Assembly (NCBI RefSeq): GCF_004353825.1
Contig: NZ_SMNA01000006.1
Span: 62,001 to 126,000, forward strand
DNA from: Occultella glacieicola
GTDB taxonomy: Bacteria; Actinomycetota; Actinomycetes; Actinomycetales; Beutenbergiaceae
DNA length: 64,000 nucleotides
Direction: 5' to 3'
A model generated the notes under the pieces. That model searched no databases, had not been told where the DNA came from, and saw only the letters and a program-made list of their open reading frames with translations. A program made the position numbers and the translations under genes. The stretch's first letter is position 1, and each line of letters opens with the position of its first letter. Shown piece after piece: positions 37,332 to 41,237 of this stretch.

Positions 37332-37997
37332 ATGGGCATCCTCATCTCTCCCAGCGTCCTGAACTCGGACCTGTCGAACCTGGCCGGTGAGGTGGACCGG
37401 ATCTCCGCCGCCGACTACGTGCACCTGGACGTCATGGACAACCATTTCGTCCCGAACCTCACGTTCGGCCTGCCCGTGGTGACCGCGCTGCTCGCACACA
37501 CCAGCCTGCCGGCGGACGTGCACCTGATGATCGAGGACCCGGACACCTGGGCGCCCGCGTTCGCCGAGGCCGGCGCGAAGTCCGTGACGTTCCACGCGGA
37601 GGCCTCCAGCGCGCCGGTTCGCCTGGCCCGCGAACTCCGCAAACTGGGGGCTCGCGCCGCGATCGCACTGAAGCCGGCCACGGGCATCGAGCCGTACCTG
37701 GACCTGCTGCCCGAGTTCGACATGGTGCTCGTGATGACCGTGGAGCCCGGGTTCGGCGGTCAGTCGTTCATCGAGGGCACGCTGCCGAAGATCCGGCGCA
37801 CCCGGGACGCGATCACGTCGCTCGGCGCCGACATCTGGGTGCAGGTGGACGGCGGTGTGTCCCGGTCCACGATCGCGATGGCCGCCGGTGCGGGGGCGAA
37901 CATGTTCGTCGCGGGGTCCGCGGTCTACTCGGCCGAGGAGCCGAACGCCGAGATCGAGGCCCTGCGTGGTCTCGCCGAGGCCGCCTACCGGGACTGA
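37332..37997 (+). CDS. rpe: Ribulose-phosphate 3-epimerase
   Basis: 221 residues, TIM barrel. It interconverts ribulose-5-P and xylulose-5-P. Signatures are [13 protein letters not shown], the metal-binding [27 protein letters not shown] and VDGGV. Its product pool includes ribulose-5-phosphate, a riboflavin precursor, which explains why rib genes often follow rpe in actinobacteria; here the next unit is an FMN-riboswitch-controlled transporter instead. Confidence 0.97.
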
Positions 37998-38066
37998 GGC
38001 ACGAGCCCGGCCGGTCTCGGAATCCGGTCCGTCCGGGCGCCGCGCACGAACGCGGCGTGGGTGTGT

Positions 38067-38072
38067 CAGAAT
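38067..38072 (+). promoter_or_regulatory. Candidate extended -10 box for the FMN riboswitch transcript
   Basis: CAGAAT preceded by TGT (extended -10 form). A start near 38079 would place the 5' end just before the riboswitch P1 stem at 38086. No clear -35. Confidence 0.4.
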
Positions 38073-38085
38073 CGTGGGGCAAGAA

Positions 38086-38214
38086 CGTGCTCCGGGGTCG
38101 GTGAAATTCCGAGCCGGCGGTGATAGTCCGCGACCCGGCCACTGCTCGTCAGTGGTCGGTTGACCTGGTGGAACTCCAGGACCGACGGTTAAAGTCCGGA
38201 TGGGAGGAAGCACG
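38086..38214 (+). ncRNA. FMN riboswitch (RFN element)
   Basis: All conserved blocks of the RFN aptamer are present in order: CCGGGGTCGGTGAAATTCCG, GGCGGTGATAGTCCGCGA, a variable arm closed by CACTG/CAGTG (about 38142-38156), CTGGTGGAACTCCAG, CCGACGGTTAAAGTCCGGA and GATGGGAGG. The closing P1 stem CGTGCT (38086-38091) pairs with AGCACG (38209-38214). The aptamer binds FMN and switches off flavin genes. Here it leads not into ribD but, after an 86-nt expression platform, into an ABC permease gene. Among the most certain calls in the window. Confidence 0.96.
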
Positions 38215-38241
38215 CGGCGTTGGGTCGATCCCGGCGTCGGC

Positions 38242-38292
38242 GGACGGTCGCGCGGCGCGCCGTCCTTCCCCGGGGTACGCCTGGGGAAGGAG
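38242..38292 (+). promoter_or_regulatory. Expression platform of the FMN riboswitch with SD-sequestering hairpin
   Basis: Hairpin 1: GGACGG (38242-38247) with CCGTCC (38260-38265). Hairpin 2: CCTTCCCC (38264-38271) with GGGGAAGG (38283-38290), which buries the SD AAGGAG (38287-38292) of the permease. The two stems share bases 38264-38265, so full formation of both is exclusive. No T-run follows, so control is likely translational. Confidence 0.7.
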
Positions 38293-38300
38293 AACGGCAG

Positions 38301-39038
38301 GTGGCCCGCGAGGATCTCGTCGCGCCCGTCGCATTCGGCGGCTTCGCACTGCTCGCCTGGCAGGGGCTGTCCTTGGTGCTCCCGGACCGGGTGCTCCCGG
38401 GCCCGACGGAGGTCGCCGCCCGCTTCGTGCTCGAGTTGCGTGAGGGCGGTCTGCTCGGTTTCGCCGGCCACACCCTCGCCGAGGCCGTGCTGGGCAGCCT
38501 GCTCGGGCTCGCCGTCGCTGTTCCACTGGGCTATCTCGTCGCCCGGTTCCGGATCGTGGCCGCTGCCATCGGCCCCTACCTCGCCGCCTCCCAGGCGATC
38601 CCGGCCGTCGCGCTGGCGCCGCTGCTGGTGGTCTGGTTCGGGTACGGCCTGCTCCCGATCGCGCTGCTGTGCGCGCTCCTGGTGTTCTTCCCGATCTTCG
38701 TCAACACGACCCTCGGGCTGAGCACCCTCGACCCGGACGTCATCGGTGCGGCGAAGGTCGACGGTGCCGGACGGTGGCGACTGCTCCTGCACATCGAGGG
38801 TCCGCTCGCGCTGCCCGCCCTGCTCGCCGGCGTCCGGAACGGCTTCGTGCTGTCCGTGACGGGTGCGGTGGTGGGCGAGTTCGTCATGGGCGGCCAGGGC
38901 CTCGGCCTGCTCCTGTCCGTGTACCGGGACCGCTCCGACATCGAAGGCATGTTCGCCGTGCTCGTCGCGCTCATCGCCCTGGCGATCAGCGTGTTCTATC
39001 TCATCCGTTCCCTCGAAAGGCGTATCCAATGGCTCTGA
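38301..39038 (+). CDS. ribX: ABC transporter permease, RibX-like (riboflavin uptake)
   Basis: 245 residues with about six membrane helices. The binding-protein-dependent transport EAA loop is visible as GAAKVDGAGRWRLLLHIEGP (about residues 149-168). It resembles SsuC/ThiX-type permeases of the nitrate/sulfonate/taurine group, the group that includes RibX. GTG start with AAGGAG 8 nt upstream, sequestered in hairpin 2 of the FMN riboswitch platform. The FMN riboswitch directly upstream is the main reason to call it a flavin transporter; from the protein alone it would be a generic permease. No ATPase gene lies in the operon. Confidence 0.82.
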   Translation: MAREDLVAPVAFGGFALLAWQGLSLVLPDRVLPGPTEVAARFVLELREGGLLGFAGHTLAEAVLGSLLGLAVAVPLGYLVARFRIVAAAIGPYLAASQAIPAVALAPLLVVWFGYGLLPIALLCALLVFFPIFVNTTLGLSTLDPDVIGAAKVDGAGRWRLLLHIEGPLALPALLAGVRNGFVLSVTGAVVGEFVMGGQGLGLLLSVYRDRSDIEGMFAVLVALIALAISVFYLIRSLERRIQWL

Positions 39039-40051
39039 CCGTGCCCCCCGTCCGGTCGCTCGCGGCGCTGACCGGCGCCGCCGCCCTCGCCCTGGCGCTC
39101 GGTGCCTGCGGCACCGATGAGCCCGACGGCGGAGCCCCGGATCTGCCGGGACTCACCATCGGTCTGACGTACGTCCCGAACGTCCAGTTCGCCCCGTTCT
39201 ACGTCGCGGAGCAGCGGGGGTACTTCGACGAGGCCGGAGTCGACGTCACCCTGCGGCACCACGGCGAGTCCGAGGACATCTTCGGCGCACTCGCCAGCGG
39301 CACCGAGGACGTCGTCACCGCCGGCGGTGACGAGATCCTCCAGGCCCGTTCGCTCGGCACACCCGCGGTCAGCATCGCGACCATGTACCAGGAGTACCCG
39401 GTGGCCCTGATCGTGCCGGAGGACTCCGACATCCAGTCGGGGGCGGACCTGGCCGGGCGCACCATCGGCGTGCCGGGGCCGTTCGGGGAGACCTACTTCG
39501 GCCTCCTGGCGATGCTCGACCTGGCGGGTCTGACCGCCGAGGACGTCACCATCGAGTTCATCGGCTTCACGCAGCAGAGCGCCCTGGCCGAGGAGCACGT
39601 CGACGCCGTGATGGGCTTCTCCAACAACGACATCCCGCAGTTCCGGGCGACGGGCCTGGACGTCCGCGCGGTCCCGCTGGGCCCCGACGTCCCGCTCGTC
39701 GGCATCGGCCTGGGCACCACGGATGACGTTCTAGCCGCCGAACCGGAGGCACTCACCGCGGTGATCACTGCCGTCGGGCGTGCGGTTGCCGACATCGCCG
39801 CGGAGCCCCAACTCGCCGTCGACGCGGCCCGGGAGGAGATCCCGGGCACCATGACGGCGGAGCAGGAGGCGATCAGCCTGGCCACCGTCGAGGAGACCAT
39901 CCCGCTCTACGGGGACCTCGGCGGCCCGTGGGGCCGGCAGGACGGCGGCACCTGGGAACAGATGGCGGAGTTCATGACGCAGACCGGACTGATCACCGAC
40001 CCGGTCTCAGCATCGCAGGCGCATACCAACGACCTCATCGGTGCCGAGTAG
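39029..40051 (+). CDS. ribY: Substrate-binding lipoprotein, RibY-like (NMT1/THI5 fold)
   Basis: 340 residues. A lipoprotein signal peptide ends in LALALGAC with lipobox Cys27, so it is anchored on the outer face of the membrane. The mature part has the NMT1/THI5-like fold of SsuA/ThiY/RibY binding proteins: LTIGLTYVPNVQFAPFYVAE, then ARSLGTPAVSI and GVPGPFGETYFGLL. It overlaps ribX by 10 bp. Together with ribX under an FMN riboswitch it is most simply the riboflavin (or FMN-precursor) binding protein. The final TAG is the start of the hisE -10 box. Confidence 0.83.
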   Translation: MALTVPPVRSLAALTGAAALALALGACGTDEPDGGAPDLPGLTIGLTYVPNVQFAPFYVAEQRGYFDEAGVDVTLRHHGESEDIFGALASGTEDVVTAGGDEILQARSLGTPAVSIATMYQEYPVALIVPEDSDIQSGADLAGRTIGVPGPFGETYFGLLAMLDLAGLTAEDVTIEFIGFTQQSALAEEHVDAVMGFSNNDIPQFRATGLDVRAVPLGPDVPLVGIGLGTTDDVLAAEPEALTAVITAVGRAVADIAAEPQLAVDAAREEIPGTMTAEQEAISLATVEETIPLYGDLGGPWGRQDGGTWEQMAEFMTQTGLITDPVSASQAHTNDLIGAE

Positions 40052-40054
40052 GCT
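40049..40054 (+). promoter_or_regulatory. -10 box of hisE, leaderless, built on the ribY stop codon
   Basis: TAGGCT: the TAG is the ribY stop; 6 nt to the GTG at 40061. Confidence 0.6.
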
Positions 40055-40060
40055 CGGGCC

Positions 40061-40324
40061 GTGAAAACCTTCGACGACCTCTTCACCGAACTGCAGGAGA
40101 AGTCCATCAGCCGCCCGGAGGGCTCGGGTACCGTCGCCCAGCTGGACGCCGGCGTGCATGGCATCGGGAAGAAGATCGTCGAGGAGGCCGCCGAGGTGTG
40201 GATGGCCGCGGAGTACCAGACCGACGCCGAGACGGCCGAGGAGATCTCCCAGCTCATCTACCACCTGCAGGTACTCATGGTCGCGAAGGGTCTGACCCCG
40301 GACGACGTGTACCGCTACCTCTGA
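40061..40324 (+). CDS. hisE: Phosphoribosyl-ATP diphosphatase
   Basis: 87 residues, the stand-alone HisE of actinobacteria (MazG-like all-helical fold). It hydrolyses PR-ATP to PR-AMP, histidine step 2. The [20 protein letters not shown] metal-binding helix and the [14 protein letters not shown] helix are diagnostic. GTG start with a leaderless box. hisG follows after 67 bp. Confidence 0.96.
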
Positions 40325-40391: not shown

Positions 40392-41237
40392 GTGTTGCGA
40401 ATCGCCGTGCCGAACAAGGGCTCACTCTCCGAGCCCGCGACCCAGATGCTCCGAGAGGCGGGCTACCGCCAGCGCCGCGACGGTGGCCGTGAGCTGGTCC
40501 TTCCGGACCCGGAGAACGACGTCGAGTTCTTCTTCCTGCGACCCCGCGACATCGCGGTGTACGTGGGCGCCGGTGTGGTCGACGCCGGGATCACGGGGCG
40601 GGACCTCCTGCTGGACTCCGGTGTGGACGCCGTGGAACATCGGTCGCTCGGCTTCGCCGGCTCCACGTTCCGGTTCGCCGGTCCGGAGGGCAGCGTGCGC
40701 AGCCTCGCGGACATCGAGGGCAAGCGGGTGGCCACCTCGTACGAGGTGCTGGTCCGCAACTACCTGACCGAGCGCGGCATCACCGCCGAGGTGGTCCGTC
40801 TCGACGGCGCCATCGAGTCCACGGTCCAACTCGGTGTCGCCGACCTGGTCGCGGACGTCGTCGAGACCGGCAGCACCCTCCGGGCCGCCGGTCTGCACGT
40901 CTTCGGCGATCCGATCCTGCAGTCGGAGGCGGTGCTGATCCGGCCGAACGCGGAGCCGAAGTCCGGACTCACCGTGCTCGACCGGCGCCTGCACGGGGTG
41001 CTCGTGGCGCGCCGGTACGTGCTGATGGACTACGACTGCCCGGTCGAGAAGGTGGACGCCGCCGTGTCCATCACACCCGGCCTGGAGTCACCGACCGTCT
41101 CGCCGCTCCATCGGACCGGCTGGGCCGCGGTGCGGGCCATGGTTCCGCGGGAGCGGACGAACGCGGTGATGGACGAGCTGTACGACGTCGGCGCGCGCGC
41201 CATCATCGTCACCTCGATCACCGCGAGTCGCCTGTAG
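40392..41237 (+). CDS. hisG: ATP phosphoribosyltransferase, long form
   Basis: 281 residues. It is histidine step 1, joining ATP and PRPP. The opening [15 protein letters not shown] and the [25 protein letters not shown]-binding segment are typical. The C-terminal about 80 residues form the His-binding regulatory domain, so this is the self-sufficient long form that needs no HisZ. It is paired with hisE; other his genes are not in the window. Confidence 0.97.

Follow-up and report, generated by a model that had tools for sequence, protein, structure and literature searches.

A putative RibXY-type riboflavin importer behind an FMN riboswitch between rpe and hisE in Occultella glacieicola, and rib operons of more than one lineage in its family

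The window, by which we mean the whole stretch of 64,000 nucleotides of Occultella glacieicola DNA that was analysed, carries a slot between rpe and hisE-hisG that is filled by an FMN riboswitch and two genes of the ABC transporter type, called ribX and ribY here. The features of the slot are collected in Table 1.

Table 1. Features in and around the slot between rpe and hisE-hisG, with positions counted in the window
Feature	Position	Strand	Evidence or remark
rpe, ribulose-phosphate 3-epimerase	37332..37997	+	TIGR01163, 250.6 bits (cut-off 212.6); left edge of the slot
FMN riboswitch aptamer, RF00050	38084..38216	+	95.3 bits, full model
Predicted 12-bp hairpin over the ribX Shine-Dalgarno sequence, likely the OFF structure	38263..38291	+	MFE fold
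ribX, ABC permease, GTG start	38301..39038	+	PF00528, E 2.5e-32
ribY, NMT1/THI5-like solute-binding lipoprotein	39029..40051	+	PF09084 (NMT1), E 5.5e-39
hisE	40061..40324	+	NF001610, 150.5 bits (cut-off 104); right edge of the slot
hisG	40392..41237	+	TIGR00070, 183.3 bits (cut-off 75.75)

The riboswitch begins 86 bases downstream of rpe, and its match (E 1e-20, gathering score 66.2 bits) runs over model positions 1-138 of 138. It is the sole RNA family found at gathering scores by cmscan against Rfam in the 64 kb window, which holds no TPP riboswitch at gathering score. A preliminary description of this DNA had placed a complete FMN riboswitch at 38086-38214, followed by a permease and a binding lipoprotein and then hisE-hisG, all downstream of rpe; the Rfam, Pfam and NCBIfam matches bear this out, and its likening of the two genes to the uptake genes ribXY stands as well, a PF00528 and PF09084 pair lying behind the FMN riboswitch. 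The 3' end of ribX and the 5' end of ribY overlap by 10 bases, which suggests translational coupling, and only 9 bases separate the ribY stop from the start of hisE. The next gene after ribY being hisE, the operon contains no ATPase gene. RibY has a lipobox, LGAC, with the cysteine at position 27 (read by eye). RibX matched 12 NCBIfam families without reaching the cut-off of any, and RibY exceeds no NCBIfam family cut-off. Among solved structures, 3ix1, an N-formyl-aminopyrimidine binding protein, comes closest to RibY (E 2.2e-18), and a profile built from 28 RibY sequences again finds 3ix1 (E 2.2e-27), then 4nmy and THI5 proteins, which are superfamily relatives only. Judged from sequence, ribX-ribY looks like a riboflavin importer of the RibXY type without an ATPase of its own, a known kind of transporter; the conservation of the slot arrangement in relatives, described below, argues that the arrangement is not due to chance.

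The leader between the aptamer and the start codon gave -59.5 kcal/mol for the whole piece (z -2.05), and its minimum free energy structure contains the hairpin of Table 1, which is also present in a 251-nt fold. The hairpin sequence is unchanged in four close Occultella sequences, so that these offer no covariation to judge it by. Among 25 leaders (23 from the family and two from a second family, f3) a start was picked by script in 22, of which three picks, the window's own included, were dropped as too close to the aptamer; at least two of five ribosome-binding positions are paired in all 19 leaders kept, although GC-rich leaders such as these pair readily. A scan for promoters and terminators gave no promoter-like site and one terminator-like site, which lies on the minus strand and does not stand above shuffled sequences. 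The lack of a plus-strand terminator makes translational control the likelier mode.

A second FMN riboswitch (G000:C19:262425-262555, 91 bits) is present on another contig of the genome that carries the window (G000; 5,339,675 bases, 23 contigs, completeness 100). In locus L003 it is followed by consecutive ribD, ribE, fused ribBA and ribH genes, all with open reading frames, which match RibD_C, Lum_binding, DHBP_synthase, GTP_cyclohydro2 and DMRL_synthase in Pfam; ribD, ribE and ribH exceed NCBIfam cut-offs, and ribBA was assigned by Pfam. With an intact ribD-ribE-ribBA-ribH set, Occultella should both make and import riboflavin. The preliminary description had proposed that this organism swapped riboflavin synthesis for import or else carries its rib genes elsewhere, and searching the rest of the genome decides for the latter, an intact rib operon being found under a second FMN riboswitch, which is one half of what the description had named as refuting it. 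That the organism is a riboflavin auxotroph, as a slot free of rib genes would suggest and as the same pattern in 10 of 24 genomes of its family does suggest for those, has become hardly credible: an auxotroph of this kind would be recognized by a genome without riboflavin biosynthesis genes, and G000 has all four. About 3.6 kb from ribH the same locus contains one frame (L003:1192-3207) with a PtuB-like part and a PtuA-like ATPase part, with matches to a Septu-type defence system at E 8.7e-30 and 7.7e-190, possibly a fusion.

The search for a partner ATPase covered 21 candidates in the genome at E 1e-30 or better, together with hits gathered at 1e-32 in 12 genomes carrying ribXY, 30 of which had loci; 51 ATPase loci were clustered at 50% identity. 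The best ATPase, at C16:70755, was set aside as part of what looks, by eye, to be a gene cluster for the catabolism of pyrimidines or hydantoins that has its own permeases. One group of five loci is common to Occultella and four f3 genomes, and it was rejected because its neighbour reads, again by eye, like the permease of a two-part thiamin transporter. No partner for RibXY was thus found among the 21 ATPases of the genome or the 51 clustered loci, a point that weighs against the importer reading. The only other RibY relative found in G000 (C16:69244, 29% identity, L318) belongs to a group of genes that, on inspection by eye, resembles a pathway for breaking down pyrimidines or hydantoins and includes a complete ABC transporter.

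To describe the slot in relatives we used 24 genomes of 10 genera; this family grouping is wider than that of NCBI, where Occultella is placed in Ruaniaceae. Families of the order are labelled f, genera g, genomes G and fetched loci L. A close RibY relative, an FMN riboswitch and the order ribY-hisE-hisG are present in 24 of 24 family genomes. The gene rpe falls within the examined stretch in 19 of them, the remaining five being three g7 genomes, G005 and G003. The FMN riboswitch precedes ribX in 23 of 24, the exception being G003, whose contig starts about 220 bases before the ribY match and is too short to tell; the aptamers of the 23 checkable leaders score 82.9-100.7 bits. At the level of the order, 20 regions were fetched around FMN riboswitch or ribH hits. 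Seven of these (L228, L230, L233 and L237-L240) have the layout rpe-FMN-rib-hisE-hisG, which occurs in families f5, f6, f9, f13, f14 and f16, and two of the seven (L233 and L237) show no ribD match; one further region, L229, has rib-hisE-hisG without an rpe match, ten have rib genes without rpe or hisE-hisG as neighbours, and two, both from f3, have ribXY in the slot. The layout with rib genes under an FMN riboswitch between rpe and hisE-hisG, which the preliminary description had given for many actinobacteria, is therefore real in the order, and the comparison of the interval among relatives that had been proposed along with it gives the importer in the slot throughout the family and rib genes there in several related families.

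RibY relatives at E 1e-25 or better were found in 57 of 346 genomes of the order with completeness of at least 90%: 23 in the family itself, 30 in f3 and four elsewhere. Twelve of the 30 f3 genomes were examined at the slot, and nine have rpe-ribX-ribY-hisE-hisG, one lacking an rpe match and two a hisE match within the examined stretch; ribH is also present in seven of the 30. The importer in the slot between rpe and hisE is thus an old, shared state, which holds the slot in this second family too.

The family differs in the presence of synthesis genes. The gene ribH occurs in 14 of 24 genomes, and ribD exceeds its cut-off in the same 14. The other ten (G001, G002, G004-G007, G011, G017, G022 and G023) span 8 of the 10 genera, and each has a single FMN riboswitch, the one before ribXY. 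In G017, which is 92% complete and in 360 contigs, the lack of ribH and ribD is less sure. These 10 of 24 genomes look import-only, judged by missing ribH and by ribD below the cut-off, and the swap of synthesis for import, which fails for Occultella, fits them. The position of their only FMN riboswitch before ribXY makes riboflavin the likeliest ligand. An orphan ribE outside any rib operon was seen in G001, G011, G015, G017 and G021 (L157:7025-7594, L158:6965-7543, L159:6919-7497, L160:6804-7379 and L161:2407-2985). Three of these genomes, G001, G011 and G017, lack ribH as well as any ribD above its cut-off, and the rib operons of G015 and G021 give no ribE match; the orphan's neighbours are common to the three g8 genomes G015, G017 and G021, and in G001 it lies beside leuA. 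In the import-only genome G005 the RibY match of L147 (G005:C1:1309889-1310826) is split into two parts that lie in different reading frames, which points either to an error in the sequence or to an importer that is broken.

Riboswitch comparisons were made over about 130 bases, where differences of a few percent are weak evidence when taken alone. The window aptamer is 98% identical to one congeneric copy, and compared with riboswitches of rib genes in the same slot it is 86-87% identical in f5, f9 and one of two f16 genomes, 82-83% in f14 and the other f16 genome, and 75% in f6. The riboswitch of the g4 rib operon, outside the slot, is likewise 86% identical, which means that resemblance to the window aptamer is not peculiar to riboswitches of the slot. 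The aptamer of the Occultella rib operon is 91-92% identical to those of f12, 90% to the f9 genus g18, 87-88% to g7 and 81% to the window aptamer. These identities would fit a history in which the riboswitch of the slot stayed in place through an exchange of the genes behind it and the regained operon arrived with a separate riboswitch.

To compare the origins of the rib operons, the RibD, RibE, RibBA and RibH sequences were joined and placed in one tree (67 rows, quick method). The four Occultella operons form one clade (100) and group with three operons of f12 (SH-aLRT 100). The seven g8 operons are placed elsewhere than those of Occultella, the g4 operon joins an f3 genome (99), and the two g7 operons lie near f9 and Occultella with no clear place. 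AU tests, run without one very long row (L227), reject a single clade of all 14 rib operons in the family (delta lnL 698, p 5.7e-51), and likewise a clade of Occultella with g8 (delta lnL 163, p 4e-59) and one of Occultella with g7 (delta lnL 222, p 1e-94); the 14 operons are not one lineage. Identity of the Occultella RibBA is 71-74% to f12, 59-61% to g7 and 50-52% to g8 (58% in one partial g8 hit), whereas the slot proteins RpE, RibX, RibY, HisE and HisG are 64-85% identical between Occultella and g8. At the DNA level, the Occultella operon with its riboswitch aligns continuously with the f12 genome G265 for 3,751 bases at 75% identity; the operon DNA matches g7 at 67% and g8 in pieces only. 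In a tree of the slot neighbours, many of whose rows are less than half filled, the family stays in one group (89) and clusters with f3 (99); an unrooted RibXY tree broadly agrees with this (family 74). The rib tree can recover vertical groups, since f7, f13, f14, f17 and f19 come out single in it, with two or three rows each. Families f3, f6, f8, f9, f12 and f16 are not single groups, and this scatter makes transfer of, or conflict among, rib operons look common in the order. Within f12, loci L287-L289 carry rib operons like those of Occultella and L235, L236 and L286 carry another type. Taken together, these comparisons indicate that Occultella's rib operon was probably acquired from another bacterium by horizontal transfer.

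We had considered the unlike operon neighbours in g1, g7 and g8 as proof of separate arrivals and rejected this. Between G000 and G010, two Occultella genomes with operons of plainly the same lineage, the match covers only the operon and its riboswitch (L003 6837-10641), and the flanks of 6-7 kb are unlike; such neighbours are therefore no proof, and for this reason we gave less weight to a repeated return of the pathway and more to the replacement of an ancestral operon. G009, another genome of the genus, shares one flank of the rib operon with G000. Compared with L148 and L258, the operon and riboswitch of L003:6837-10641 form a sharply bounded block, as if a moving cassette. This suggests that the rib operon and its riboswitch travel as a unit.

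The explanation that best joins the gene content, both riboswitches, the conserved slot and the phylogenetic conflict of the rib operons, all of which are observed, combines a RibXY riboflavin importer, a rib operon elsewhere in the genome, an ancient takeover of the slot and a later transfer that supplied the Occultella operon; we hold this combination with good confidence. We infer that riboflavin is the ligand of RibXY from the riboswitch, its conservation and the import-only genomes, and we likewise infer the direction and order of the gains and losses. The lipoprotein RibY would capture riboflavin outside the cell and deliver it to the permease RibX, powered by an ATPase encoded elsewhere. 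When FMN is plentiful, its binding to the riboswitch would let the hairpin hide the ribosome-binding site of ribX and lower ribX translation, and ribY translation would fall along with it through the overlapping start. Import and synthesis in Occultella, each with a separate FMN riboswitch, would answer the same FMN signal. Earlier in the history of the family, the importer would have displaced the rib operon from the interval between rpe and hisE and come under a riboswitch already there; the synthesis operon of Occultella would have come later by horizontal transfer, with the importer kept.

It is unlikely that the pair imports another compound, such as a thiamin pyrimidine, and that the FMN riboswitch is a relic of a lost rib operon. 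The nearest solved relatives of RibY, which are pyrimidine-binding or of the THI5 type, would speak for such a ligand and against riboflavin, above all the N-formyl-aminopyrimidine binding protein that is the best of them, and the riboswitch is much like those of rib genes in the same slot in other families; but a relic would not be expected to score as the aptamer does in 23 of 23 checkable family leaders or to be the only FMN riboswitch in the ten genomes without ribH, and no TPP riboswitch accompanies the pair in the window. We consider it somewhat less probable still that the family's rib operons are an old, vertically inherited set, with synthesis relocated from the slot a single time and lost afterwards in several genera. 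Such a history needs no transfer and accords with the single Occultella clade, and the unlike surroundings seen even between G000 and G010 take away one argument for separate arrivals, but the AU tests reject a single clade for all 14 operons and for Occultella with either g8 or g7, and the Occultella operon is closer to f12 than to its own family.

How the conflict among the operons arose allows two readings of more weight. The common ancestor with f3 may have lost its rib operon to the importer, several descendants regaining synthesis by separate transfers, and to this we give about an even chance. Alternatively, the ancestor may have kept a rib operon outside the slot, which foreign operons replaced several times without any import-only stage; it accounts for the phylogenetic conflict equally and draws on the apparent frequency of rib operon transfer in the order, but it needs further losses for the 10 genomes, in 8 of 10 genera, that lack ribH, and we regard it as a serious though doubtful alternative. 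If loss followed by separate regain is true, the ancestral takeover would mean a lineage that depended on outside riboflavin, the regained rib operons would have brought their own FMN riboswitches while the importer was kept, and the family would be a natural series of vitamin pathway loss and repeated return. The family is of interest because it combines one slot and one riboswitch position with rib operons of unlike origin, and import-only species side by side with species that import and synthesize. It makes it testable whether a lost vitamin synthesis can return repeatedly and what role a riboflavin importer has in a cell that also makes riboflavin, a role that PMC4418817 calls unknown. 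Among the matches listed from open-licence papers, no title dealt with slot replacement or repeated return of the pathway, and none fitted regained riboflavin synthesis or Beutenbergia auxotrophy.

The importer itself is of an ordinary, already-known kind. In PMC3766115, RibXY is predicted in Chloroflexi as an FMN-riboswitch transporter, a homologue of ThiXYZ without an ATPase component, and in Roseiflexus castenholzii it is said to compensate for a missing rib operon. PMC4418817 reports that an E. coli strain auxotrophic for riboflavin can grow on low riboflavin with the help of RibXY from Chloroflexus aurantiacus, and cites other work for flavin binding by C. aurantiacus RibY and for the presence, in a few Chloroflexi, of a ribZ ATPase gene next to ribXY. 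For Actinobacteria it lists RibXY under FMN riboswitches both where the pathway is present and where it is absent; it also states that most bacteria with a riboflavin transporter also synthesize riboflavin, notes homologues elsewhere under TPP, ykkC or T-box control, which counts against riboflavin as the ligand here, assigns RibXY to COG0600 and COG0715, and gives as its starting threshold for RibY >38% identity over at least 80% to the C. aurantiacus protein.

Compared with RibXY of Chloroflexi and Actinobacteria, to which we liken it by gene makeup, riboswitch and domains, the Occultella pair has the same FMN riboswitch, the same operon of a permease and an NMT1-type binding protein without an ATPase gene, and the same occurrence with or without the biosynthesis pathway; it differs in its place between rpe and hisE-hisG, where several related families have their rib operon, and in having no counterpart in its operon to the ribZ of a few Chloroflexi. 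The FMN riboswitch (RFN element, RF00050) is a full-length match with nothing unusual about it, and the downstream hairpin suggests translational control. The thiamin-precursor importer ThiXYZ belongs to the same protein superfamily, with 3ix1 as the best solved relative of RibY, whereas the Occultella operon has an FMN and not a TPP riboswitch, no ATPase gene, and rpe and hisE-hisG as neighbours. With the actinobacterial order rpe-rib-hisEG it shares the slot, the riboswitch position and the neighbours, but in Occultella two importer genes stand in place of the biosynthesis genes.
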